In this document: positions 5,362 through 17,019 of the stretch, one piece after another
Layout: each line of letters starts with the position of its first letter
Numbering within the stretch: position 1 is the stretch's first letter
NCBI GenBank assembly: GCA_001914535.1
Contig: MNCR01000003.1
Location: 1 to 35,312, forward strand
Reading direction: 5' to 3'
DNA length: 35,312 nt
Source of the DNA: Candidatus Rokubacteria bacterium 13_2_20CM_69_15_1
GTDB lineage: Bacteria; Methylomirabilota; Methylomirabilia; Rokubacteriales; CSP1-6
The notes under the pieces: generated by a model
Databases searched by the model: none
The model's input: only the letters and a program-made list of their open reading frames with translations
Told to the model about the DNA's origin: nothing
Program-made: the position numbers and the translations under genes

Positions 5362-6713
5362 TGTGTGGACTCGGACGGCGATGGAGGCTCTGCGTCCTGG
5401 TGCTCGGGAGTTCGATCGCGCTCTTGCAGCCGGTGGATGCGGCGACGAGCGTCAAGCCGCGCGTGCTGCTCATCGCGCCCTTCGACGCAACCGCCCTCGA
5501 TCGCGAGGAGCAGTGGATCGGCGAGGGGGTCGCTCAGATCCTGTCGCTCGGGCTCGCGCAGCATCCCGCGTTCGTCCAGATCGAGCGGTCGCGCTTGCGT
5601 GCCTACGGCCAGCCAGACGCGTGGGGCGATACGGCGCTAGGCCAGGCGGCCCGCGCGGTGCGCGCCGAGGCCGTGCTGTTCGGCACGCTCACGCGGCGAC
5701 CCCCGGAGCTCGTGATCCAGGCACGGCTTCTGGAGATCAAGGGGGCGGGTGGTGAGGTCGTGCTCCTCGAGCCGATCACGGCACCGGAGGGCGAGCTGCT
5801 CGCGAAGATCGTGGGGCTCCCGGTTGCGTTCGCGAGGGCACTCAAGGTGCCGCTCACGGCTTCCGAGACCGCGCAGATCGAGCGCGCGGCGCTGCCCACG
5901 CGGTCGCCACGCGCCTTCGAGCTTTTCACACGTGGCGCGATGGCGCTCCAGCGCGGGACGCAGGAGGCCAACGAGACCGCAGTGGACCTGCTGGCGCGCG
6001 CGATCGAGGCCGACCCCAACTTCGTCGTCGCCCACTACACCCTCGGGGCGGTGCATCAGACGCTCGGGAACCGCTGGAAGGCGGCCGCGCAGTTCCGTGC
6101 CTCGACCCAGCTCGACGCGGTGTATCCCGAGCCGTTCAAGGCGCTGGGAGACCTCTTCCTCGCGGCGCCGCGGCGCCTGTTCGACCAGGCCGTCGAGGCG
6201 TACAACAAGGCGATCGAGCTGCGGCCCTTCTACGCCGACGCCTACGTCGGCCTCGGGGACGCCCGCGCCGCCAAGGGCGAGATCGACCCGGCGATCGCGG
6301 CCTACCAGAAGGCGCTCGTGTTCAATCCGGTCAACCCCAAGGTCTACCTGAGCCTCGGCAAGATCTACTATGCCGAGAAGGGGCTCTACTACGAGTCCGT
6401 CAACGCGTATAAGAAGGGGATCGAGCTCGACCCGCAGCTCGTCGAGGCGCGCATGGGGCTCGGCGAGGTCTACGAAGAGAAGGGGCTCTACAAGGAGGCG
6501 GTGGAGGAGTACAAGCGGGTGATCGAGCTGGACAGCGCGCACACGGGCGCCCTGTATAACCTCGCCCTCGTCTACGAGAAGATCGACCCCAAGGAAGCGG
6601 TCTCCCACTGGGAGCGCTACATCCAGCTCGCGTCACCGCTACAGTCCGAGAAGGACTGGGTGGACGTTGCTCGGCAGCACCTGCGAAAACTGAAGGGTCA
6701 GATCAAGGAGTAG
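5361..6713 (+). CDS. Secreted TPR-repeat protein with FlgO-like N-terminal domain
   Basis: 450 residues from the ATG that overlaps the preceding stop (TGATG); a strong GGAGG at 5349-5353 supports this start over upstream in-frame codons. The N-terminus (RRWRLCVLVLGSSIALLQPVDAA) is a signal peptide. Residues about 30-165 resemble the FlgO/GNA1162-type fold that precedes TPRs in many secreted proteins (VLLIAPFDATALDREEQWIG). From about residue 190 to 430 there are roughly seven TPR units with the typical W/Y-G-A-Y-P spacing (for example YVGLGDARAAKGEIDPAIAAY). It is probably a periplasmic scaffold acting with the VWA fusion protein, since both are in one translationally coupled operon. BatE/BatB-type TPR partners are known in Bat operons. 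Confidence 0.85.
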   Translation: MCGLGRRWRLCVLVLGSSIALLQPVDAATSVKPRVLLIAPFDATALDREEQWIGEGVAQILSLGLAQHPAFVQIERSRLRAYGQPDAWGDTALGQAARAVRAEAVLFGTLTRRPPELVIQARLLEIKGAGGEVVLLEPITAPEGELLAKIVGLPVAFARALKVPLTASETAQIERAALPTRSPRAFELFTRGAMALQRGTQEANETAVDLLARAIEADPNFVVAHYTLGAVHQTLGNRWKAAAQFRASTQLDAVYPEPFKALGDLFLAAPRRLFDQAVEAYNKAIELRPFYADAYVGLGDARAAKGEIDPAIAAYQKALVFNPVNPKVYLSLGKIYYAEKGLYYESVNAYKKGIELDPQLVEARMGLGEVYEEKGLYKEAVEEYKRVIELDSAHTGALYNLALVYEKIDPKEAVSHWERYIQLASPLQSEKDWVDVARQHLRKLKGQIKE

Positions 6714-6945
6714 CCAGGAGCGTCTGGAGCTTCGCCCGGTCGAAGCCGACCACGACCTGACCATCGACGACGATCACAGGAACGGCCATGCGCCCGGTGA
6801 GCCGTACGAGCTCCTCCCGCGCGTCCGCATTCTCCATCACGTTGACGTCCTCGAACGGCACGCCCTGAGACGAAAGAAACTCTTTCGCCGCTCTGCAGGG
6901 CCCTCAGGTGGGGCTCGAGTAGACGGTGACGGCGTGAGGACTCAT
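6703..6945 (-). CDS. Glutaredoxin-like selenoprotein (in-frame UGA read as selenocysteine)
   Basis: An 80-residue minus-strand gene interrupted by TGA at 6906-6904, so it is invisible to standard gene calling. Translating the TGA as Sec gives a complete thioredoxin-fold glutaredoxin/NrdH-like protein. It has an N-terminal beta strand (HAVTVYSSPT), the redox motif Sec14-Gly-Pro-Cys17, a helix (RAAKEFL), the cis-proline strand MAVPVIVVDG (Pro56) and a C-terminal GFDRAKLQTLL helix. The TGA falls exactly where the first Cys of CxxC belongs, and the reading frame stays conserved for 66 codons beyond it. The ATG at 6945 has GGAGG five bases upstream. A bSECIS-like hairpin follows the TGA. The 3' end overlaps the convergent TPR gene by 11 bases. 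It probably catalyses thiol/disulfide or selenenylsulfide exchange in the cytoplasm. A decayed Cys version is the alternative, but the hairpin and intact frame argue against that. Confidence 0.88.
6862..6901 (-). promoter_or_regulatory. Bacterial SECIS-like stem-loop downstream of the UGA
   Basis: Read on the minus strand, the lower stem GCCCTG (6901-6896) pairs with CAGGGC (6867-6862). AGA (6894-6892) can pair with TCT (6870-6868). The apical stem CGAAAGA (6887-6881) pairs perfectly with TCTTTCG (6877-6871) around a GTT loop (6880-6878). The apical loop begins 23 bases after the UGA and its first base is G. Both match the known bacterial SECIS rules: a loop 16-37 nt from the UGA, with G among its first two bases. 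It would recruit SelB with Sec-tRNA. No sel genes are in the window. Confidence 0.8.
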
Positions 6946-7038
6946 CCGGGCCTCCGCGTTAAACTGTGCCGGCCGCCGCGCGGCCATAGGTATCATATTT
7001 CAGATGCCGGCAATCGCCATATCGTTTCGGGGGATCGG

Positions 7039-8040
7039 GTGGACGAGCTGAGGAAGGATCCGACGCGGGGGCACTGGGTGCTGATCCGCCCTGCGGGCAA
7101 AGGATCGTCTTCGGGCGACTGCCCCTACTGTCCTGGCGCCGAGGACCTTGCCGGGCCGGAGATCGCGGCGTACCGCAAGGATGGCTCTCCGCCAAACGGC
7201 CCGGGTTGGTCCGTGCGTGTCGTCCCCGAGGGCGATGCGTATTTCCGGATCGAATGGGAGCTGGTGCGCGAGGGCGTGGGGATGTTCGACATGCTCACGC
7301 CTCGCGGTGCCTCCGAGCTCGTCGTCGAGTCACCCCGTCACGACGACACGCTCGCGACGATGGCGCCCGAGGCGCTCGAGGCCGTGCTGTGGATGTACCG
7401 CGATCGGCTCGTGGACCTCAAGCGCGACAGCCAGATTCGTGACATCCTCGTCTCGCGGCGCCACAGGAAGCCTGGCGTGCCGCCGCACCACCCGTACTCG
7501 CGCCTCAGCGCGATCCCGATCGTGTTCGACGAGATGCGCCGAGAGCTCCGAGAGGCGCGCGAGTACTACCAATACAAGCGTCGTTGCCTCTACTGCGACA
7601 TGCTCCGTCAGGAGATCGCCGCCCAGGAGCGCGTCGTGCGCCTGACGTCCGCCTTTGCGGCGCTCGTGCCGTACGCGGCGCGCGGTCCGCTCGAGACCTG
7701 GATCCTCCCGCGCCAGCATGGCTGCTCGTTCGAGGAGGGGCTGACCGCGGAGACCGCACGCGATCTCGCGCGCCTGCTCTCGGACTACTTTCGCACGCTC
7801 GCCGCGGGCCTCGGCGATCCAGGCTACGAAATGGTGCTCCACACGGCGCCAAACCTCCGGTCGCGAATATTGCAGGGGGACTGGGCGACGATTCGCGACG
7901 ACTATCACTGGCACCTCGAGGTCGTCGTGCAACCCGAGCATGCCAACCGGGTCGGCGGGATCTTCGTCAACGAGACCGCGCCGGAGGTCTCGGCGGGGCG
8001 ACTGCGCGACGCCTGGCCACGCGTCAGCGGCGAAGGGTAG
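7039..8040 (+). CDS. Galactose-1-phosphate uridylyltransferase-like protein (HIT superfamily) with altered active site
   Basis: 333 residues from GTG 7039, whose protein begins VDELRKDPTRGHWVLI as in GalT; an upstream in-frame GTG (6934) would run through the divergent promoter region. Zn-ligand pairs are visible as C28-PY-C31 and, in the second half, C183-LY-C186. The C-terminal half keeps the GalT-like HWHLEVV strand. The catalytic segment that reads HPHGQ or HPHSQ in active GalT enzymes is here H151-P152-Y153-S154-R155. The structural His is kept, but the nucleophilic His that becomes uridylylated is Tyr and the following Gln is Arg. It may therefore bind a nucleotide sugar, or catalyse a different reaction. 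The gene is monocistronic and divergent from the selenoprotein gene, separated by 93 bases. Confidence 0.82.
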   Translation: MDELRKDPTRGHWVLIRPAGKGSSSGDCPYCPGAEDLAGPEIAAYRKDGSPPNGPGWSVRVVPEGDAYFRIEWELVREGVGMFDMLTPRGASELVVESPRHDDTLATMAPEALEAVLWMYRDRLVDLKRDSQIRDILVSRRHRKPGVPPHHPYSRLSAIPIVFDEMRRELREAREYYQYKRRCLYCDMLRQEIAAQERVVRLTSAFAALVPYAARGPLETWILPRQHGCSFEEGLTAETARDLARLLSDYFRTLAAGLGDPGYEMVLHTAPNLRSRILQGDWATIRDDYHWHLEVVVQPEHANRVGGIFVNETAPEVSAGRLRDAWPRVSGEG

Positions 8041-8319: not shown

Positions 8320-8751
8320 ATGCTCCGTTTCACCAAGCGCGCCGACTACGGCCTGATGGCGATTCATTATATTGCCGTCCACGACGATGTCGGGGCGGTG
8401 AGCGCCAAGCGGATTGCCGAGAAGTCCGGCATTCCGCCGGAGCTCCTCGCGAAGATCCTGCAACGTCTCGCGAAGCGGCGGCTGATTGTGAGTCAAAACG
8501 GGCCGAAGGGTGGGTACGTGCTCTCGCGCCACCCGGGCAAGATTACGGTGGGCGAGGTGATCCGGGCCCTGGAGGGACCCATCAGCATCGTGAGCTGTCT
8601 GGACCACGGAGGGTGTCCGCAGGAGCCGCGGTGTAGCCTGCGCCGACCGGTCCAGAAGCTCCAGGTGGCGATCACCCAGCTGCTCGACACGATGAGCCTG
8701 GCGGAGCTGACGAACGACAACGTTCCGGAACTTTTGTCGATCCGGGCGTGA
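8320..8751 (+). CDS. iscR: IscR, Rrf2-family [2Fe-2S] transcriptional regulator
   Basis: A 143-residue Rrf2-family regulator. The N-terminal winged helix-turn-helix is typical (MLRFTKRADYGLMAI, then SAKRIAEKSGIPPELLAKIL and the GPKGGYVLSR wing). The cluster ligands C93, C99 and C105 have the C-x5-C-x5-C spacing of E. coli IscR (C92, C98, C104), so it should bind a labile [2Fe-2S] cluster through these plus a His. It is the first gene of the isc operon and lies just downstream of an IscR type-1-like palindrome, which implies autoregulation according to Fe-S supply. Its stop is 14 bases before the iscS-like start. The assignment rests on family, ligands, operator and operon together. Confidence 0.93.
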   Translation: MLRFTKRADYGLMAIHYIAVHDDVGAVSAKRIAEKSGIPPELLAKILQRLAKRRLIVSQNGPKGGYVLSRHPGKITVGEVIRALEGPISIVSCLDHGGCPQEPRCSLRRPVQKLQVAITQLLDTMSLAELTNDNVPELLSIRA

Positions 8752-8765
8752 AGGAGACCGCGCCG

Positions 8766-9992
8766 ATGGCCCTGAAGTTTCCGATCTTCATGGACGCGCA
8801 ATCGACGACGCCGTGCGACCCGCGGGTCGTCGACGCGATGCTGCCCTACTTCGTCGAGAAGTTCGGCCATCCGGCGAGTCGGAACCATCCCTTCGGATGG
8901 GAGGCCGAGGGCGCCGTCGACGCCGCGCGGGCGAAGATCGCGCGCCTCATCAACGCGCGCGACCCCAAAGAAGTCGTGTTCACGTCGGGTGGCACCGAGG
9001 CGATCAACCTCGCGCTCAAGGGCGTCGCCGAGATGTACCGCGAGAAGGGCAATCACATCGTGACGACGGCGATCGAGCAGCGGGCGGGGCTCGACACCTG
9101 CAAGCGGCTCGAGCGTCTCGGGTTCGAGGTGACGTACGTTCCGGTCCAGCCGAACGGCCTCGTGGACGTGGACGACGTGAAGAAGGCGCTGACGGACAAG
9201 ACAATCCTCATCTCGGTCATGTTCGCGAACAACGAGATCGGCGCGATCCAGGACATCGCCGCGATCGGGAAGCTCGCGAAGGAGAAGGGGATCATCTTCC
9301 ACACCGACGCCACCCAGGCCACCGGCAAGATCCCGGTCGACGTCGAAAAGATGGGGATCGACCTGTTCTCGTGCACGGCGCACCTGATCTACGGGCCCAA
9401 GGGCGTCGGCGCGCTCTACGTTCGGCGCAAGGCGCCGCGCGTGCGGCTTGCGCCCATGATCGACGGCGGCGGGCACGAGCGCGGGATGCGCTCGGGGACC
9501 TTGCCGGTACCGCTCGTCGTGGGCTTCGGGCGGGCGGCGGAGATCTGCGAGGAGGTCATGCCGGAGGAGAGCGCACGGCTCGGCAAACTCCGCGACAGAC
9601 TCCAAGACGCGATCCTCGGGAGCGTGGACGAGGCATTCCTGAATGGCGATCCGGAGCGGCGCCTGCCGCACAACCTGAACATCTCGTTCGCGTACGTGGA
9701 GGGTGAGTCGGTCCTGATGGGGCTCAACAAGGAGACCGCGCTATCGTCCGGCTCGGCGTGCACGTCGTCCACCCTCGAACCGTCGTACGTGATCGCCGCG
9801 CTCGGCGCGAGCGCAGAGCTGGCGCATTCGTCGATCCGGTTCAGCCTCCACCGGTTCAACACCGAGGAGGAGGTGGAGTGGGTCGCCAAGCGTACGATCG
9901 AGGTCGTCAGGCGGCTTCGGGACATGTCGCCGCTCTACGAGTTGGCGAAGGAAGGTGTTGATATCAAGTCCATCCAGTGGAAGGCTGAGTAA
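8766..9992 (+). CDS. IscS-like protein lacking the PLP-binding lysine (probably no desulfurase activity)
   Basis: 408 residues from ATG 8766, with AAGGAG nine bases upstream; a GTG at 8748 is a weaker alternative. The sequence follows E. coli IscS throughout (NNEIGAIQDI, GGGHERGMRSGT, ELAHSSIRFSL, C-terminal DIKSIQW). However, the segment that reads SGHKIYGPKG in IscS is TAHLIYGPKG here: Leu207 replaces the Lys that forms the Schiff base with PLP. Gln105 also replaces the catalytic His104 (EQRAGLDTC against EHKAVLDTC). The persulfide-carrying Cys332 is retained (SSGSACTSS). Archaeoglobus fulgidus IscS, also lacking the PLP Lys, is reported to have no desulfurase activity and to donate a Cys ligand to a cluster on IscU. 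This protein may likewise be a structural or cluster-holding partner of IscU. An intact paralogue lies at 14815-15987. Confidence 0.88.
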   Translation: MALKFPIFMDAQSTTPCDPRVVDAMLPYFVEKFGHPASRNHPFGWEAEGAVDAARAKIARLINARDPKEVVFTSGGTEAINLALKGVAEMYREKGNHIVTTAIEQRAGLDTCKRLERLGFEVTYVPVQPNGLVDVDDVKKALTDKTILISVMFANNEIGAIQDIAAIGKLAKEKGIIFHTDATQATGKIPVDVEKMGIDLFSCTAHLIYGPKGVGALYVRRKAPRVRLAPMIDGGGHERGMRSGTLPVPLVVGFGRAAEICEEVMPEESARLGKLRDRLQDAILGSVDEAFLNGDPERRLPHNLNISFAYVEGESVLMGLNKETALSSGSACTSSTLEPSYVIAALGASAELAHSSIRFSLHRFNTEEEVEWVAKRTIEVVRRLRDMSPLYELAKEGVDIKSIQWKAE

Positions 9993-10004
9993 AGGGGGAC
10001 GGGG

Positions 10005-10418
10005 ATGGCGTACAGCGAGAAGGTCGTCGATCACTACAACAACCCACGCAACGTCGGGTCCTTCATGAAGGACACGCCGGGGGTCGGCACGGGTCTCGTC
10101 GGCGCGCCCGAGTGCGGCGACGTGATGAAGCTGCAGATCAAGGTGAACCTCCAGACCGGGGTCATCGAGGACGCGAAGTTCAAGACGTTCGGGTGTGGCA
10201 GCGCGATCGCGTCATCGAGCCTGGCCACCGAGTGGCTGAAGGGCAAGACGGTCGACGAGGCTGGCAAGATCAAGAATACCGACATCGTGAACGAGCTGAA
10301 GCTCCCGCCCGTCAAGATCCACTGCTCGGTGCTCGCCGAGGACGCGATCAAGGCGGCGCTGGCGGACTACAAGACGAAGTGGATCAAGGAGGGCGCGGCC
10401 GCCGCGTCCTCGACGTAA
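10005..10418 (+). CDS. iscU: IscU, Fe-S cluster assembly scaffold
   Basis: A 137-residue IscU. The three cluster ligands are present: C37 in APECGDVM, C64 in TFGCGSA and C107 in KIHCSVLAEDAI. The Asp39 that promotes cluster release and the His before the third Cys are also kept. The LPPVK motif recognised by HscA directly precedes that His, so chaperone-driven cluster transfer should work. It accepts iron and sulfur, assembles [2Fe-2S] clusters and passes them to carriers. The gene starts 12 bases after the IscS-like gene and has a GGGG-rich ribosome site. The canonical ligands here contrast with the altered IscU/NifU-like protein at 15984. Confidence 0.96.
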   Translation: MAYSEKVVDHYNNPRNVGSFMKDTPGVGTGLVGAPECGDVMKLQIKVNLQTGVIEDAKFKTFGCGSAIASSSLATEWLKGKTVDEAGKIKNTDIVNELKLPPVKIHCSVLAEDAIKAALADYKTKWIKEGAAAASST

Positions 10419-10434
10419 GGGACTGGGGAGCCGT

Positions 10435-10764
10435 ATGGCGGTGACGCTGACCGAAGCCGCGGCCAATCAGGTGAAGGAGCTCAAGCGGGCCCAGAGCCTG
10501 CCCGACACCGTCTTCTTGAGGATGGGCGTCAAGGGTGGGGGGTGTTCGGGGCTCTCGTATTCGCTGGAGTTCGACAGCGAGATCGGGCCGCACGACAAAG
10601 AGTTCGAGCTCGACGGCATCAAGGTCGTCGTGGACAAGAAGAGCTACCTGTACCTCAACGGCACGACACTCGACTACGTGCAGCAGGGGTTGACGGGGGG
10701 GTTCACGTTCCTGAACCCCAGCGCGAAGTCGAGCTGTGGATGCGGCACGTCGTTCTCGGCGTAG
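10435..10764 (+). CDS. iscA: IscA/ErpA-type A-type Fe-S carrier
   Basis: A 109-residue HesB/IscA family protein with the three conserved cysteines C37 (GGGCSGLSY), C101 and C103 (SCGCGTSF). These bind a cluster or iron at the dimer interface and hand it to target apoproteins. It follows iscU by 16 bases and has GGGGAG before the ATG. It could be called IscA by position or ErpA by sequence; the window alone does not distinguish them. A strong terminator-like hairpin follows within the operon. Confidence 0.93.
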   Translation: MAVTLTEAAANQVKELKRAQSLPDTVFLRMGVKGGGCSGLSYSLEFDSEIGPHDKEFELDGIKVVVDKKSYLYLNGTTLDYVQQGLTGGFTFLNPSAKSSCGCGTSFSA

Positions 10765-10785
10765 CCGGGTCGGCCGAACCACCAA

Positions 10786-10818
10786 GAACGGGCCCGGCGG
10801 AGGGCCCGTTCCTATTTT
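10786..10818 (+). terminator. Terminator-like hairpin inside the isc operon
   Basis: GAACGGGCCC (10786-10795) pairs perfectly with GGGCCCGTTC (10802-10811) around a 6-base loop and is followed by CTATTTT. This is a good factor-independent terminator between iscA and hscB. It would reduce expression of hscB-hscA-fdx-iscX relative to iscR-S-U-A, unless an unseen promoter serves the second half. Confidence 0.75.
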
Positions 10819-10847
10819 GACAGGGTGAGCGGGAGGGCGTGAGCGGG

Positions 10848-11438
10848 ATGGACCACTTCCAGGTGTTCGGGTTGCCGCGGCGGCTCGCCATCGACACGGT
10901 GGAGCTGCAGCGGAAGTTCTACGAGCTGTCTCGGCTCCACCACCCGGACTTCCACCAGGCGGCGTCGCCGGAGGAGCAGGCGCGGACGCTCGAGGCCTCG
11001 GCGAGGTTGAACACCGCGTACCGCGCCCTCCGGGATCCGATCGCACGCGTCGAGTACCTCGTCCGCCTCGAGGAGGGCCGTGACACGAAGGAGGGCGCTA
11101 CGGTCAAGCCCAAGGCGCCGCCCGAGCTGCTGGAGGAGATGTTCGAGATCCAGGAGGCGCTCGCGGAGGCGAAGGTGGGTGGCCTCGACGAGGCCGGCCG
11201 CGCCGCGCTCGTCGCCCCGCGCGATCGTCTGATGGTCCGGTTGGAGCAGGAGAACGCCCGGCTCGTGGGGCCTCTCACCCAGGGGTGGGATGCCGCCGCG
11301 CCGGCGGAGCGGCAGCGCGTGCTCGCCGCCATGAAGGAAGCGTTGGCGACGCGCGCGTACCTCGGCACGGTGATCGACGACCTGAACGACGCCCTCGGGG
11401 AAAGCCTGGAAGGCTATGTCACGCATCGTCGGCATTGA
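10848..11438 (+). CDS. hscB: HscB, J-domain co-chaperone of Fe-S assembly
   Basis: 196 residues from ATG 10848, with GGGAGGG about ten bases upstream; GTG 10839 is a three-residue longer alternative. The N-terminal J-domain begins DHFQVFGLPRRLAID and contains the HPD triad at 32-34 that stimulates Hsp70 ATPase. The C-terminal helical part (EEMFEIQEALAEAK and onward) is the IscU-binding domain of HscB. There is no N-terminal zinc-finger extension. It delivers IscU to HscA. The hscA start lies 23 bases inside this gene, so the two are probably translated together. Confidence 0.93.
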   Translation: MDHFQVFGLPRRLAIDTVELQRKFYELSRLHHPDFHQAASPEEQARTLEASARLNTAYRALRDPIARVEYLVRLEEGRDTKEGATVKPKAPPELLEEMFEIQEALAEAKVGGLDEAGRAALVAPRDRLMVRLEQENARLVGPLTQGWDAAAPAERQRVLAAMKEALATRAYLGTVIDDLNDALGESLEGYVTHRRH

Positions 11439-13248
11439 TCTCGGGACCACCAACAGTCTCGTCGCGTACGTCGACGAGAAGACGGGTCTCCCGAGGGTGA
11501 TCCCCGACCAGGAGGGGCGTGTGCTCCTGCCGTCGGTGGTGTCGTTCACGACTGAGGGCGTGGTGGTCGGCGAGGCGGCGAAGCGGCTGCTCGTGCGGCG
11601 GCCGGCCACGACCGTCTACTCCGTCAAGCGGCTCATGGGGCGAGGGTACGAGGACGTCAAGGAGGAGCTCTGCTACCTCCCCTTCAAGGTTGCTCCGTGC
11701 GATGGGATCGTGAAGATCCAGATCGGGGACCGCGAGGTAACGCCGCCCGAGGTGTCGGCGATCGTGCTGAGATCGCTCAAGGAGCGCGCCGAGGCTCACT
11801 TCAGGGAGCCGATCGAGAAGGCCGTCATCACGGTCCCGGCGTATTTCAACGACAGCCAGCGCCAGGCGACGAAGGACGCCGGACGGATCGCCGGCCTCGA
11901 TGTCGTGCGCATCGTCAACGAGCCGACCGCGGCGTCGCTCGCCTATGGGCTCCATCGACTCAAAGAGGGTGTCATCGCCGTGTACGACCTCGGCGGCGGG
12001 ACCTTCGACATCTCGATCCTGCGTGTGAAGGACGGCGTGTTCGAGGTGCTCGCGACCAACGGCAACACGCACCTCGGCGGCGATGACTTCGACCGTGCGA
12101 TCGTCGTCTGGCTCCTGGACGACATCCTCTCCGAGCACGGCGTCTATCTCGGGCGCGACACCGAGGCGATGCAGGAGCTGCGCTTGGCAGCCGAGGCGGC
12201 CAAGGTTCGCCTGTCCGCGGAGGACCGGACGACGCTCACGATCCCGTTCGAGGAGTTTACGTACCGCCGCGCGATCACGCGTGCCGAGCTCGAAGGGCTG
12301 ATCGAAAAGCTCGTCGACGCCACGCTCGGACCGTGCCGGATGGCGATCGCCGACGCGGGCGTGGCGCCGTCGGACATCGATGAGGTCGTCCTGGTCGGCG
12401 GCTCGACGCGCGTGCCACTCCTCCGCCGCCGCGTCCAGGAGCTGTTCGCGAAGACGCCGCACAGCCAACTCAACCCCGACGAGGTCGTCGCGCTCGGCGC
12501 CGCGGTCCAGGCGCACATCCTGGCGGGTGGGATCACGAGCATGCTGCTCCTTGACGTGACGCCGCTGTCGCTCGGGATCGAGACGCTCGGCGGCATCGTG
12601 AGCGTGCTGATCCCACGCAATACGACGATCCCGACGAGCGCGCGGGAGATGTTCACGACGTCGGTGGACGGGCAGACCATCGTCGACCTGCACGTGGTCC
12701 AGGGCGAGCGCGAGCTCGCCAAGGACTGCCGCTCCCTCGCGCGCTTCGAGCTGTCCGGGATCGACCCGATGCCGGCGGGGATGCCGAAGATCGAGGTCAC
12801 ATTCCTCATCGACGCCAACGGCATCCTGCAGGCCCAGGCGAAAGAGCTCCGGACTGGGAAGGCCACGGCGATCGAGGTGAAGCCGACGTACGGGCTCTCG
12901 GAGACCGAGGTCGAGCGGATGGTGGAGGAGTCGTTCGCGTATGCGGAGGCCGACGTCGAGGCGCGGCTCCTGATCGAGACGCGCAACGAGGCGGACACGG
13001 TGATCACCCACGTCGAGCGTGCCCTGCGCCAGGGAGGCGAGCTCGTGCCAGTCGAGGAGCGGGAGGCGATCCGGGAGGCGCTCGAGGAGCTTCGGCGAGC
13101 GCGCGCTGGCGACGACCGGGGGCGGATCCGCGATACCACCGCGGCCCTGAACCGTGCGACGGAGCACCTCGCGGACGTGATGATGGACGCGGCGCTCAAG
13201 GCGGCGCTCGGCAGCAAGCGTGCGGCGGAAATCATGGAGTCGGACTAA
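11416..13248 (+). CDS. hscA: HscA, Hsp70-type chaperone of Fe-S assembly
   Basis: A 610-residue Hsp70 of the specialised HscA class. The nucleotide-binding domain starts VGIDLGTTNSLVAYVD and includes VITVPAYFNDSQRQAT, the phosphate loop VYDLGGGTFDISIL and VVLVGGSTRVPLL. The substrate-binding beta domain (about 380-500) begins LLLDVTPLSLGIETLGG. Length and gene neighbours (HscB before, ferredoxin after) separate it from DnaK. It binds the LPPVK motif of IscU and uses ATP to drive cluster transfer. The ATG is preceded by GGAAGG and overlaps the end of hscB. Its stop overlaps the fdx start (TAATG). Confidence 0.95.
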   Translation: MSRIVGIDLGTTNSLVAYVDEKTGLPRVIPDQEGRVLLPSVVSFTTEGVVVGEAAKRLLVRRPATTVYSVKRLMGRGYEDVKEELCYLPFKVAPCDGIVKIQIGDREVTPPEVSAIVLRSLKERAEAHFREPIEKAVITVPAYFNDSQRQATKDAGRIAGLDVVRIVNEPTAASLAYGLHRLKEGVIAVYDLGGGTFDISILRVKDGVFEVLATNGNTHLGGDDFDRAIVVWLLDDILSEHGVYLGRDTEAMQELRLAAEAAKVRLSAEDRTTLTIPFEEFTYRRAITRAELEGLIEKLVDATLGPCRMAIADAGVAPSDIDEVVLVGGSTRVPLLRRRVQELFAKTPHSQLNPDEVVALGAAVQAHILAGGITSMLLLDVTPLSLGIETLGGIVSVLIPRNTTIPTSAREMFTTSVDGQTIVDLHVVQGERELAKDCRSLARFELSGIDPMPAGMPKIEVTFLIDANGILQAQAKELRTGKATAIEVKPTYGLSETEVERMVEESFAYAEADVEARLLIETRNEADTVITHVERALRQGGELVPVEEREAIREALEELRRARAGDDRGRIRDTTAALNRATEHLADVMMDAALKAALGSKRAAEIMESD

Positions 13249-13571
13249 TGGCGGTCCACAAGATCACCTTCCTGCCGATGAACGTCACGGTGGAAGTGGA
13301 CGACGCGAAATACCCGCTCGCCGATCATGGCAAGCCCGGGTCGCTCCTCGACATCGCGCTCGCCCACGACATCCCGCTCGAGCACAACTGCGGTGGCAGC
13401 TGTGCGTGCACCACGTGCCACGTCGTCGTCCGAGAGGGCGAGGAGAACCTCTCTGAAATGCAGGCCGACGAGGAGGACCGTCTGGACATGGCCGAGGGGC
13501 TGACGATCCACTCGCGGCTCGGCTGCCAGGCGGTCGTGCGCGGGAACGTGATCGTGGAGATCCCGGAGTGA
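13248..13571 (+). CDS. fdx: ISC-type [2Fe-2S] ferredoxin
   Basis: A 107-residue adrenodoxin-type ferredoxin. Ligands C48, C54 and C57 (CGGSCACTTC, with an additional C52) and C93 (RLGCQAV) bind the [2Fe-2S] cluster. It supplies electrons for sulfur reduction or reductive coupling of clusters on IscU. It is translationally coupled to hscA (TAATG) and its last bases overlap the iscX start. An acidic helix (MQADEEDRLDMAEG) typical of partner recognition is present. Confidence 0.95.
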   Translation: MAVHKITFLPMNVTVEVDDAKYPLADHGKPGSLLDIALAHDIPLEHNCGGSCACTTCHVVVREGEENLSEMQADEEDRLDMAEGLTIHSRLGCQAVVRGNVIVEIPE

Positions 13572-14814: not shown

Positions 14815-15987
14815 ATGGAGAGCAACCGAATGAACCGTCGCGTGTACCTCGATCACAACGCGTCGACCCCGATCCACCCCGAGGTCCTTGCCGAGATGCT
14901 CCCGTACTTCTCGGAGGTCTTCGGGAACCCCTCCAGCATCCACACGTTCGGCCGCGACGCGCGGGAAGGCGTCGAGCGCGCGCGCGAGCGCGTGGCGCGC
15001 TTCCTGGGCGTCTCGCCGCAAGAAGTCGTGTTCACCTCGGGCGGGACGGAGTCGGACAACTTCGGGGTGAAGGGGCTGGCGTACGGACGCGGCAAGGGGC
15101 ACCTCATCACATCGAGCGTCGAGCACCACGCCGTGCTCCGAGCGTGCCAGGCGCTCGAGGCGCAGGGATTCGACGTCACCTACGTCGGCGTTGACGAGTA
15201 TGGGATAGTCGATCCGGACGACGTCCGCCGCGCCATCCGACCCGACACGATCGCCATCAGCATCATGCACGCCAACAGCGAGGTGGGGTCGCTTCAGCCG
15301 ATCACGGCGATCGGTCGCATCGCGCGCGAGCATGGGGTCCCGCTCCACGTCGACGCTGTCCAGACCTTTGGCAAGATCGCCATCGACCTCGACGCCTTCG
15401 GGATCGACGCGTTGTCCTTCTCGGGTCACAAGATCTACGGACCCAAGGGCGTCGCCGGCCTCTGGATCCGCAAGGGCACTCGCATGGTCGCGATCCAGCA
15501 CGGCGGCGAGCACGAGCGGCGGCGCCGGGCGGGCACGGAGAACGTACCGGGTATCGTCGGCCTCGGCAAGGCAGCGGAGATACGGGGCCGTGACATGCAC
15601 GCGGAGGCCGAGCGCCTGACCGTGCTGCGGAACCGCCTGATCGACGGCGTCCGCGACCGCGTGCCCGACGTGCGGCTCTCCGGCCACCCGACCGAGCGGC
15701 TGCCCGGGACCGCGAGCCTCCTCTTCCGACATGTCGAGTCGGAATCCATCGTACTCGGGCTCGATCTCAAGGGCATCGGCGTGTCGGCCGGGTCGGCGTG
15801 CACGTCGGGCAACGTGGAGCTGTCGCACGTGCTCGTGGCGATGGGCGTCCCGCTCGACTGGGCGATCGGCGCCGTTCGCTGCTCGCTAGGCTGCTCGACG
15901 ACGGCGGAGGACATCGAGTACGTGATCGAGTGCATCGAGCCGCTCGTAAGGAAGCTCCGGCAGGCCATGCCGGCCGGCGTCGCATGA
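14815..15987 (+). CDS. Cysteine desulfurase, NifS/IscS class, catalytically intact
   Basis: 390 residues from ATG 14815; an in-frame ATG at 14830 (MNRRVYLDH) is an equally good start. This PLP enzyme takes sulfur from cysteine, giving alanine and an enzyme persulfide. The catalytic set is complete: H104 in VEHHAVL, K206 in SGHKIYGPKG for PLP, and the loop Cys C329 in SAGSACTSG. It has the class I NifS/IscS pattern (YLDHNASTPIHPEV, GGEHERRRRAGTEN). The stop overlaps the scaffold gene that follows (ATGA), and serine acetyltransferase comes next. It is likely the true sulfur source for both scaffolds, because the isc-operon paralogue has lost its lysine. Confidence 0.93.
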   Translation: MESNRMNRRVYLDHNASTPIHPEVLAEMLPYFSEVFGNPSSIHTFGRDAREGVERARERVARFLGVSPQEVVFTSGGTESDNFGVKGLAYGRGKGHLITSSVEHHAVLRACQALEAQGFDVTYVGVDEYGIVDPDDVRRAIRPDTIAISIMHANSEVGSLQPITAIGRIAREHGVPLHVDAVQTFGKIAIDLDAFGIDALSFSGHKIYGPKGVAGLWIRKGTRMVAIQHGGEHERRRRAGTENVPGIVGLGKAAEIRGRDMHAEAERLTVLRNRLIDGVRDRVPDVRLSGHPTERLPGTASLLFRHVESESIVLGLDLKGIGVSAGSACTSGNVELSHVLVAMGVPLDWAIGAVRCSLGCSTTAEDIEYVIECIEPLVRKLRQAMPAGVA

Positions 15988-16364
15988 GGTACAGTCCGAC
16001 GCTCGTGGACCACTTCCTCAACCCCCGCAACGCCGGCCTCATGCGCGCCCCCGACGGCGTCGGCGAGGACGAGTACGCTGGCTGCGGCGACCTCACGCGC
16101 TTCTTCCTGCGCGTGCGCGACGGCCGGGCGGTCGAGGTTCGCTTCCAGACGTACGGATGCGGCCCAACGATCGCGGCCGCGAGCGCCGCGAGCGAGCTCT
16201 GCCAGGGGCGGCCCGTGGACGACCTCTGCCAGCTCAAAGCGGAGGAGATCGAGCGGATCCTCGAGTGGCTGCCCGACGACCGCAAGCACGCGGCCGAGGT
16301 AGCCGCGGGCGCGCTTCGGGCGGCGGCCCGTGACCACCTGAGCCGTAGGCGCCGCGATGTTTAA
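15984..16364 (+). CDS. NifU/IscU-like scaffold lacking the third cysteine ligand
   Basis: 126 residues from ATG 15984, which overlaps the desulfurase stop. The N-terminus is clearly NifU/IscU-like ([17 protein letters not shown]). C34 and D36 (AGCGDLTRF) and C59 ([10 protein letters not shown]) match the first two ligands. The third ligand is missing: E. coli IscU has His105-Cys106, whereas this protein has H102-A103 (RKHAAEV). The LPPVK chaperone site is also absent (LPDDRK). It may therefore hold a cluster through the His, borrow a ligand from its partner, or act in another way and independently of HscA. Position after the active desulfurase supports an assembly role. Confidence 0.85.
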
Positions 16365-17019
16365 GGCTCTTCGCCGCGACATTCGAGCGGTGCTGGAGCG
16401 TGACCCGGCCGCCCGCTCCGCGATCGAGGTGCTGCTCTGCTACCCGGGTGTGCACGCACTCGCGTACCATCGGCTGGCGCATCGGCTGTGGAGTCACGGC
16501 TGGCTCACGACGGCGCGTCTCGTCTCCCACATGGCGCGGTTCATGACTGGAATCGAGATCCACCCGGCGGCGAAGATCGCGCCCGGTCTCTTCATCGACC
16601 ACGGGATGGGGGTCGTGATCGGCGAGACCGCGGAGGTGGGCGAGAACGTCACACTGCTCCAGGGCGTGACCCTGGGCGGGACGAGTCTCAGGCGCGAGAA
16701 GCGCCACCCGACCCTCGGCAACAACGTCGTCGTTGGCGCCGGCGCCAAGATCATCGGGGGCTTCAAGATTGGTGACGGGAGCCGCATCGGCGCCGGCTCC
16801 GTGGTCGTGCGCGAGGTGCCGCCGAACTCCGTTGTCGTGGGCGTTCCGGGCCGGGTAACATATCGCGACGGCCAGCGTGTCGCCGGGGAGATCGACCTGA
16901 ACCAGACGGATCTCCCCGACCCGGTCAGCAAGGCAATCGAGCAGCTGGTCGAGCGGATCCGCGGGCTGGAGGCCGAGCTCGAGACTGTGCGCAAGAAGAT
17001 GGAGGAGGAGCGCCCGTGA
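16357..17019 (+). CDS. cysE: Serine O-acetyltransferase
   Basis: A 220-residue CysE/EpsC-type enzyme. It makes O-acetylserine from serine and acetyl-CoA, the committed step of cysteine synthesis. The N-terminal helices lead into left-handed hexapeptide repeats (about 65-165) with the family motifs [43 protein letters not shown] and [19 protein letters not shown]. The C-terminal helix is charged and coiled-coil-like. The ATG overlaps the scaffold gene by 8 bases, tying cysteine supply to the desulfurase that consumes it. It is the short bacterial form rather than the 270-residue E. coli type. Confidence 0.94.

Follow-up and report, generated by a model that had tools for sequence, protein, structure and literature searches.

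A probable selenocysteine-containing glutaredoxin-like gene, interrupted by an in-frame UGA codon, in a Rokubacteria genome

The minus-strand frame at positions 6703–6945 of the window analysed here (the whole 35,312-nucleotide stretch of Candidatus Rokubacteria DNA) is very probably a functional selenoprotein gene, in which, judging from sequence comparisons, codon 14 would be read as selenocysteine (U14) through SelB, tRNA-Sec, and a hairpin in the mRNA. The gene is almost certainly intact despite its apparent break by this UGA: with near certainty, the codon specifies a catalytic selenocysteine in a small glutaredoxin-like redox protein. Stop-to-stop gene calling would cut such a real gene at codon 13, and it is probably unannotated so far.

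Reading frame and genomic surroundings

The frame runs on the minus strand from an ATG at 6945–6943 to its own stop, a TGA at 6705–6703, and comprises 80 codons plus the stop. Its sole internal stop is the TGA of codon 14 (6906–6904, minus strand), at the first redox position, which gives the active site U14-G-P-C17. With this TGA read as U, the product is MSPHAVTVYSSPTUGPCRAAKEFLSSQGVPFEDVNVMENADAREELVRLTGRMAVPVIVVDGQVVVGFDRAKLQTLLATP, including a cis-proline (Pro56) and a GFD motif at residues 67–69. A Shine-Dalgarno sequence, GGAGG (6951–6955, minus strand), was read from the sequence 5 nt before the ATG, and many of the homologues carry a comparable GGAGG or GAGG upstream. An earlier note on this DNA, made from the sequence alone, had described an 80-codon minus-strand frame with a single internal TGA at the first redox position, a ribosome site, and the cis-proline, all of which were borne out by the translation and the features just listed. 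The same note had also argued from the 66 codons left open past the TGA; this argument carries no weight and open-frame length was dropped as evidence for a gene, because at the 69% G+C of the window such stretches are common (P ~0.25, with 206 of them in the six frames).

The gene lies between two genes of the plus strand, both with approximate starts. One, at 5363–6713, encodes a TPR-repeat protein (PF13414, E 1.1e-38), is convergent with the glutaredoxin-like gene, and overlaps its 3′ end by 11 bp; the other, at 7024–8040, encodes a galactose-1-phosphate uridylyltransferase-like (GalT-like) protein (PF02744, E 2.7e-8) and is divergent from it. When checked by motif, the TPR neighbour was found in six and the GalT-like neighbour in seven of nine Rokubacteria contigs, and neither was conserved in Nitrospinota or Deltaproteobacteria. 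Since this arrangement is conserved in Rokubacteria only, it suggests no partner for the protein, and the gene neighbourhood was set aside as a clue to function.

Elsewhere in the window, inspection of the ORF translations by eye revealed an Rrf2/IscR-like regulator gene followed by IscS, IscU, IscA, HscB, HscA, and ferredoxin-like genes (8320–13571), which by eye make up an entire ISC operon for iron-sulfur clusters, close to the glutaredoxin gene. A second pair of cysteine desulfurase-like and IscU-like genes, followed by a serine acetyltransferase-like gene, was seen in the same way at 14815–17019.

Family assignment and conservation of the TGA codon

When cysteine was placed at U14, the best Pfam match of the protein was Glutaredoxin (PF00462), with 76.5 bits against a gathering cut-off of 22.9 and an E value of 1.8e-21. 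The Cys-substituted protein also matched the NCBI model GlrX_YruB (TIGR02196) over its full length, with 93.5 bits against a cut-off of 88.55, and passed narrowly that of the Uxx-star family (NF041212), with 67.9 against 66 bits. Scores for Uxx-star sub-families 1, 2, and 3 were far below their cut-offs, and that for NrdH-redoxin (TIGR02194) did not reach its own (58.1 against 85.75 bits). The Uxx-star family shares with the present protein the selenocysteine at the first redox position, whereas the description of the TIGR02196 model itself makes no mention of selenocysteine. NrdH-redoxins (PDB 1h75, 1r7h, and 4fiw) have the same fold and length and a probable dependence on thioredoxin reductase, but carry cysteine where selenocysteine would stand here.

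A single-sequence fold of the protein was poor (pLDDT 53.5) and was replaced by an AlphaFold model built from 19 homologues, which reached a pLDDT of 93 and has the glutaredoxin fold. Together with the PF00462 match, this agrees with the complete glutaredoxin-like fold that had been read from the sequence. The best PDB match of the model was 7c10, the dithiol form of Grx1 from Clostridium (Alkaliphilus) oremlandii (cGrx1; also 7c12), with TM scores of 0.86/0.94, an rmsd of 1.0 Å, and 52% identity, and this protein is the closest solved relative by both sequence and fold. In their native form, both cGrx1 and MsrA, its proposed partner, are selenoproteins; for crystallography their selenocysteine was replaced by cysteine (PMC7642778). 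The two glutaredoxins are of similar length and have the stretches MAVPVI and VVVGFDR in common; Cys13 of cGrx1 aligns with U14 and its Cys16 with C17. They differ in the middle residues of the motif (UPHC in cGrx1, UGPC here), and cGrx1 comes from an anaerobic Firmicute, with Sec-MsrA as its proposed partner. The TGA thus takes the place of the catalytic residue, as had been claimed: the catalytic cysteine of the solved glutaredoxins aligns with U14, and so do the homologues. The earlier note was also right that Sec-containing glutaredoxin-like proteins form an established class: since NF041212 already models the family and cGrx1 has been characterised (PMC7642778), the Rokubacteria gene is not a new class but a very well supported addition to a known one.

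Conservation of the TGA was followed in three sets of sequences. Peptide patterns omitting the redox position, run against 84,980 species genomes, returned 17 loci; 16 of them were relatives of the gene, all 16 with TGA at the matching codon, and the 17th was a distant ArsC-like protein. The Cys-substituted query, which biases a search toward Cys forms, was run against 95 genomes of the phylum. The gene or a paralogue was present in 91 of these genomes, and each of the 62 best matches had exactly one internal stop, a TGA. Some weaker matches, distant or partial, had no stop at all, and no Cys form of the gene was found in the 95 genomes. Finally, codon-by-codon reading of 36 loci, representing 35 distinct homologues from Rokubacteria, Nitrospinota, and Deltaproteobacteria, showed TGA in all 35, followed by x-P/S-C. 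No fewer than three phyla are covered by this conservation. Purifying selection acts both before and after the TGA, with dN/dS values of 0.05–0.14 downstream of it for most of the closer relatives. Since both the TGA and the frame behind it are conserved, the gene stands far above chance; random stops and frameshifts in close relatives, named beforehand as what would speak against it, were not found.

These data also bear on the simplest alternative, a pseudogene or a sequencing error in which a cysteine codon (TGC or TGT) had been mutated or misread as TGA. A single base separates TGC from TGA, and the genome is a metagenome bin with a fragmented assembly; however, the same TGA occurs in independent assemblies across the 35 homologues and in the 62 best phylum matches, and dN/dS is low among the closer relatives. 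Because the TGA is universal in the homologues and dN/dS is low, both an error and a dead gene are excluded; on these comparisons the alternative is already refuted by the conserved TGA and the conserved frame behind it, and we assign it practically no probability.

A frozen hairpin and the selenocysteine machinery

The strongest internal evidence for selenocysteine, overlooked in the first reading of the sequence, is a putative bSECIS hairpin within the coding sequence at 6869–6889 (minus strand), GGCGAAAGA-GUU-UCUUUCGUC, with a stem of 9 bp located 22–23 nt after the UGA. Counted from the first base of the UGA, it can fold from 18 nt onward, with −9.2 kcal/mol and a z score of −3.75; the 45-nt region folded alone gave a z score of only −1.92. 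As quoted in PMC13188914, the bSECIS model has a loop of 3–9 nt with a G in its first two positions, a stem of 4–16 bp, a distance of 16–37 nt from the UGA, and a minimum free energy of −7.5 kcal/mol or lower, the loop often being N1-G-[G/U]-N-N2 with N1 and N2 paired. The hairpin falls within all the constraints quoted there, with its 9-bp stem, its GUU or AGUUU loop, its spacing of 22–23 nt, and its −9.2 kcal/mol, and if A-GUU-U is taken as a loop of 5 nt, the quoted loop pattern is matched exactly. The Rfam scan of the window gave no match at the gathering threshold.

The codons that make up stem and loop hardly vary at synonymous sites. Among the 35 distinct homologues, K21 is AAA in 32, E22 is GAG in 35, F23 is TTT in 34, and L24 is CTT in 35, so that GC3 at codons 21–24 is 0.09, 1.00, 0.03, and 0.00, compared with 0.7–1.0 at most other positions. 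When the window was paired with each of 17 relatives, codons 21–25 showed a synonymous difference of 0.00 in 15 of the 17 pairs, whereas over codons 27–78 the same pairs gave 0.32–0.74. This freezing argues for selection on the RNA, and not on the protein alone, exactly where a SECIS element is required. It was used in place of covariation, which was set aside as evidence because the hairpin is too invariant: in 31 distinct sequences, 96.8% of the pair cells are kept and no double compensatory change was found in the stem, an absence that reflects how little the stem varies and is a limit, not a contradiction. Pairing was likewise not clearly better than in column shuffles (28/500), and sliding the partners breaks it.

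The exact 15-mer of the hairpin occurs once in the genome, at this gene only. That the hairpin might be common to other selenoprotein genes was rejected, as this 15-mer is unique and the stem in selD is different.

The selenocysteine genes, whose presence had been suggested as a check on the reading, were all detected above their cut-offs in the organism's own genome, a bin of 146 contigs that is about 76% complete. The genes selA (595.6 bits), selB (379.8 bits), and selC (69.8 bits), the last encoding a tRNA-Sec with a UCA anticodon, lie within 5 kb on the same strand of contig C135, and selD (327.5 bits) is on contig C23. This selD (G000:C23:5510-6451; L029, L064) is itself a selenoprotein gene, with an in-frame TGA in YSSCAG-U-ASK followed by a strong hairpin (−29.5 kcal/mol). 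In the phylum, selA was found in 84 of the 95 genomes. Those lacking it are mostly incomplete bins, although two (G060 and G087) are rated 95–100% complete; both carry TGA-containing Sec-glutaredoxin genes with no selA match, most likely as the result of assembly gaps. In addition, a relative of the same order has a thioredoxin reductase match of 385 bits with one internal TGA (G094:C147:3667-4569), possibly a selenocysteine form or an assembly error. For comparison, 63 predicted selenoprotein genes are given for one Methylomirabilota MAG in work cited in PMC13188914.

Both hairpin and machinery speak against recoding of the UGA as tryptophan or cysteine, or its readthrough by a near-cognate tRNA, instead of selenocysteine insertion. 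We found nothing specific in favour of such decoding, although a selenium shortage might conceivably lead to some cysteine being inserted at the UGA. Against this reading, the gene's own stop is also TGA, SelA, SelB, SelC, and SelD are all present, the hairpin is frozen at synonymous sites where a SECIS belongs, and the TGA aligns with the catalytic cysteine. We therefore regard it as very improbable, and selenocysteine as the preferred meaning of codon 14.

Proposed reaction, electron donor and related redoxins

In the mechanism that we propose, SelB and tRNA-Sec (UCA anticodon) would decode the UGA of codon 14 as selenocysteine, directed by the hairpin 22–23 nt downstream inside the coding sequence, the product being a YruB/Uxx-star protein of 80 residues with the glutaredoxin fold. 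The selenolate of U14 would attack disulfides in its targets, or oxidised substrates; the intermediate would be resolved by Cys17, leaving a U14-Cys17 selenenylsulfide that would then be reduced. This reaction is put forward by analogy with C. oremlandii Grx1 and with glutaredoxins in general.

As for the source of electrons, the protein is likely a thiol/selenol reductase fed by thioredoxin reductase. In 40 relatives, the organism's own genome included, trxB was above the cut-off in all 40 and gshB in none; 14 of them gave weak ATP-grasp matches to gshB, which may represent other ATP-grasp enzymes. Because of these counts, an NrdH-like role fed by thioredoxin reductase is favoured over a glutathione-fed one, and is perhaps considerably the more probable of the two. 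The same selenoprotein could instead be a true glutathione-dependent glutaredoxin, as Glutaredoxin is its best Pfam match and the disulfide in glutaredoxins of the cGrx1 kind is reduced by glutathione (PMC7642778). Apart from the distribution of gshB and trxB, two observations run counter to this: the relevant motif near the end of the molecule is GFD, not GGxDD, and a TGA-containing paralogue adjoins trxB in three of nine loci. Glutathione-binding glutaredoxins of the E. coli type end in GGxDD. A glutathione-dependent enzyme thus seems rather unlikely to us, and the link to thioredoxin reductase remains the preferred reading.

A group of TGA-containing paralogues was found next to all seven ferredoxin:thioredoxin-reductase genes detected in the 40 relatives. 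Paralogue and reductase were adjacent in each of the nine loci inspected, with trxB directly upstream in three of them, and no gene of the ferredoxin:thioredoxin-reductase type was found in the organism's own genus. Such a pairing of glutaredoxin and reductase has a precedent, since PDB 7pwe is a natural fusion of glutaredoxin and ferredoxin disulfide reductase; a selenocysteine form beside a reductase of this type was not found in the literature searched. A tentative idea, to which we give a rather low probability, is that in the glutathione-poor Rokubacteria (Methylomirabilota) small Sec-redoxins might have assumed the role of general electron carriers, the one described here fed by thioredoxin reductase and its paralogue group by the adjoining ferredoxin:thioredoxin-reductase-type enzyme.

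In conclusion, the gene adds one more solid selenoprotein to a phylum already reported to be rich in them, and its frozen SECIS hairpin offers a clean, testable target of SelB for this phylum. The position of the paralogue beside the ferredoxin:thioredoxin reductase hints that electron transfer may have a selenium-based branch, which is open to assay; if the tentative idea above were true, these redoxins would constitute a lineage-wide, selenium-run disulfide-reducing system with no cysteine form as a backup.
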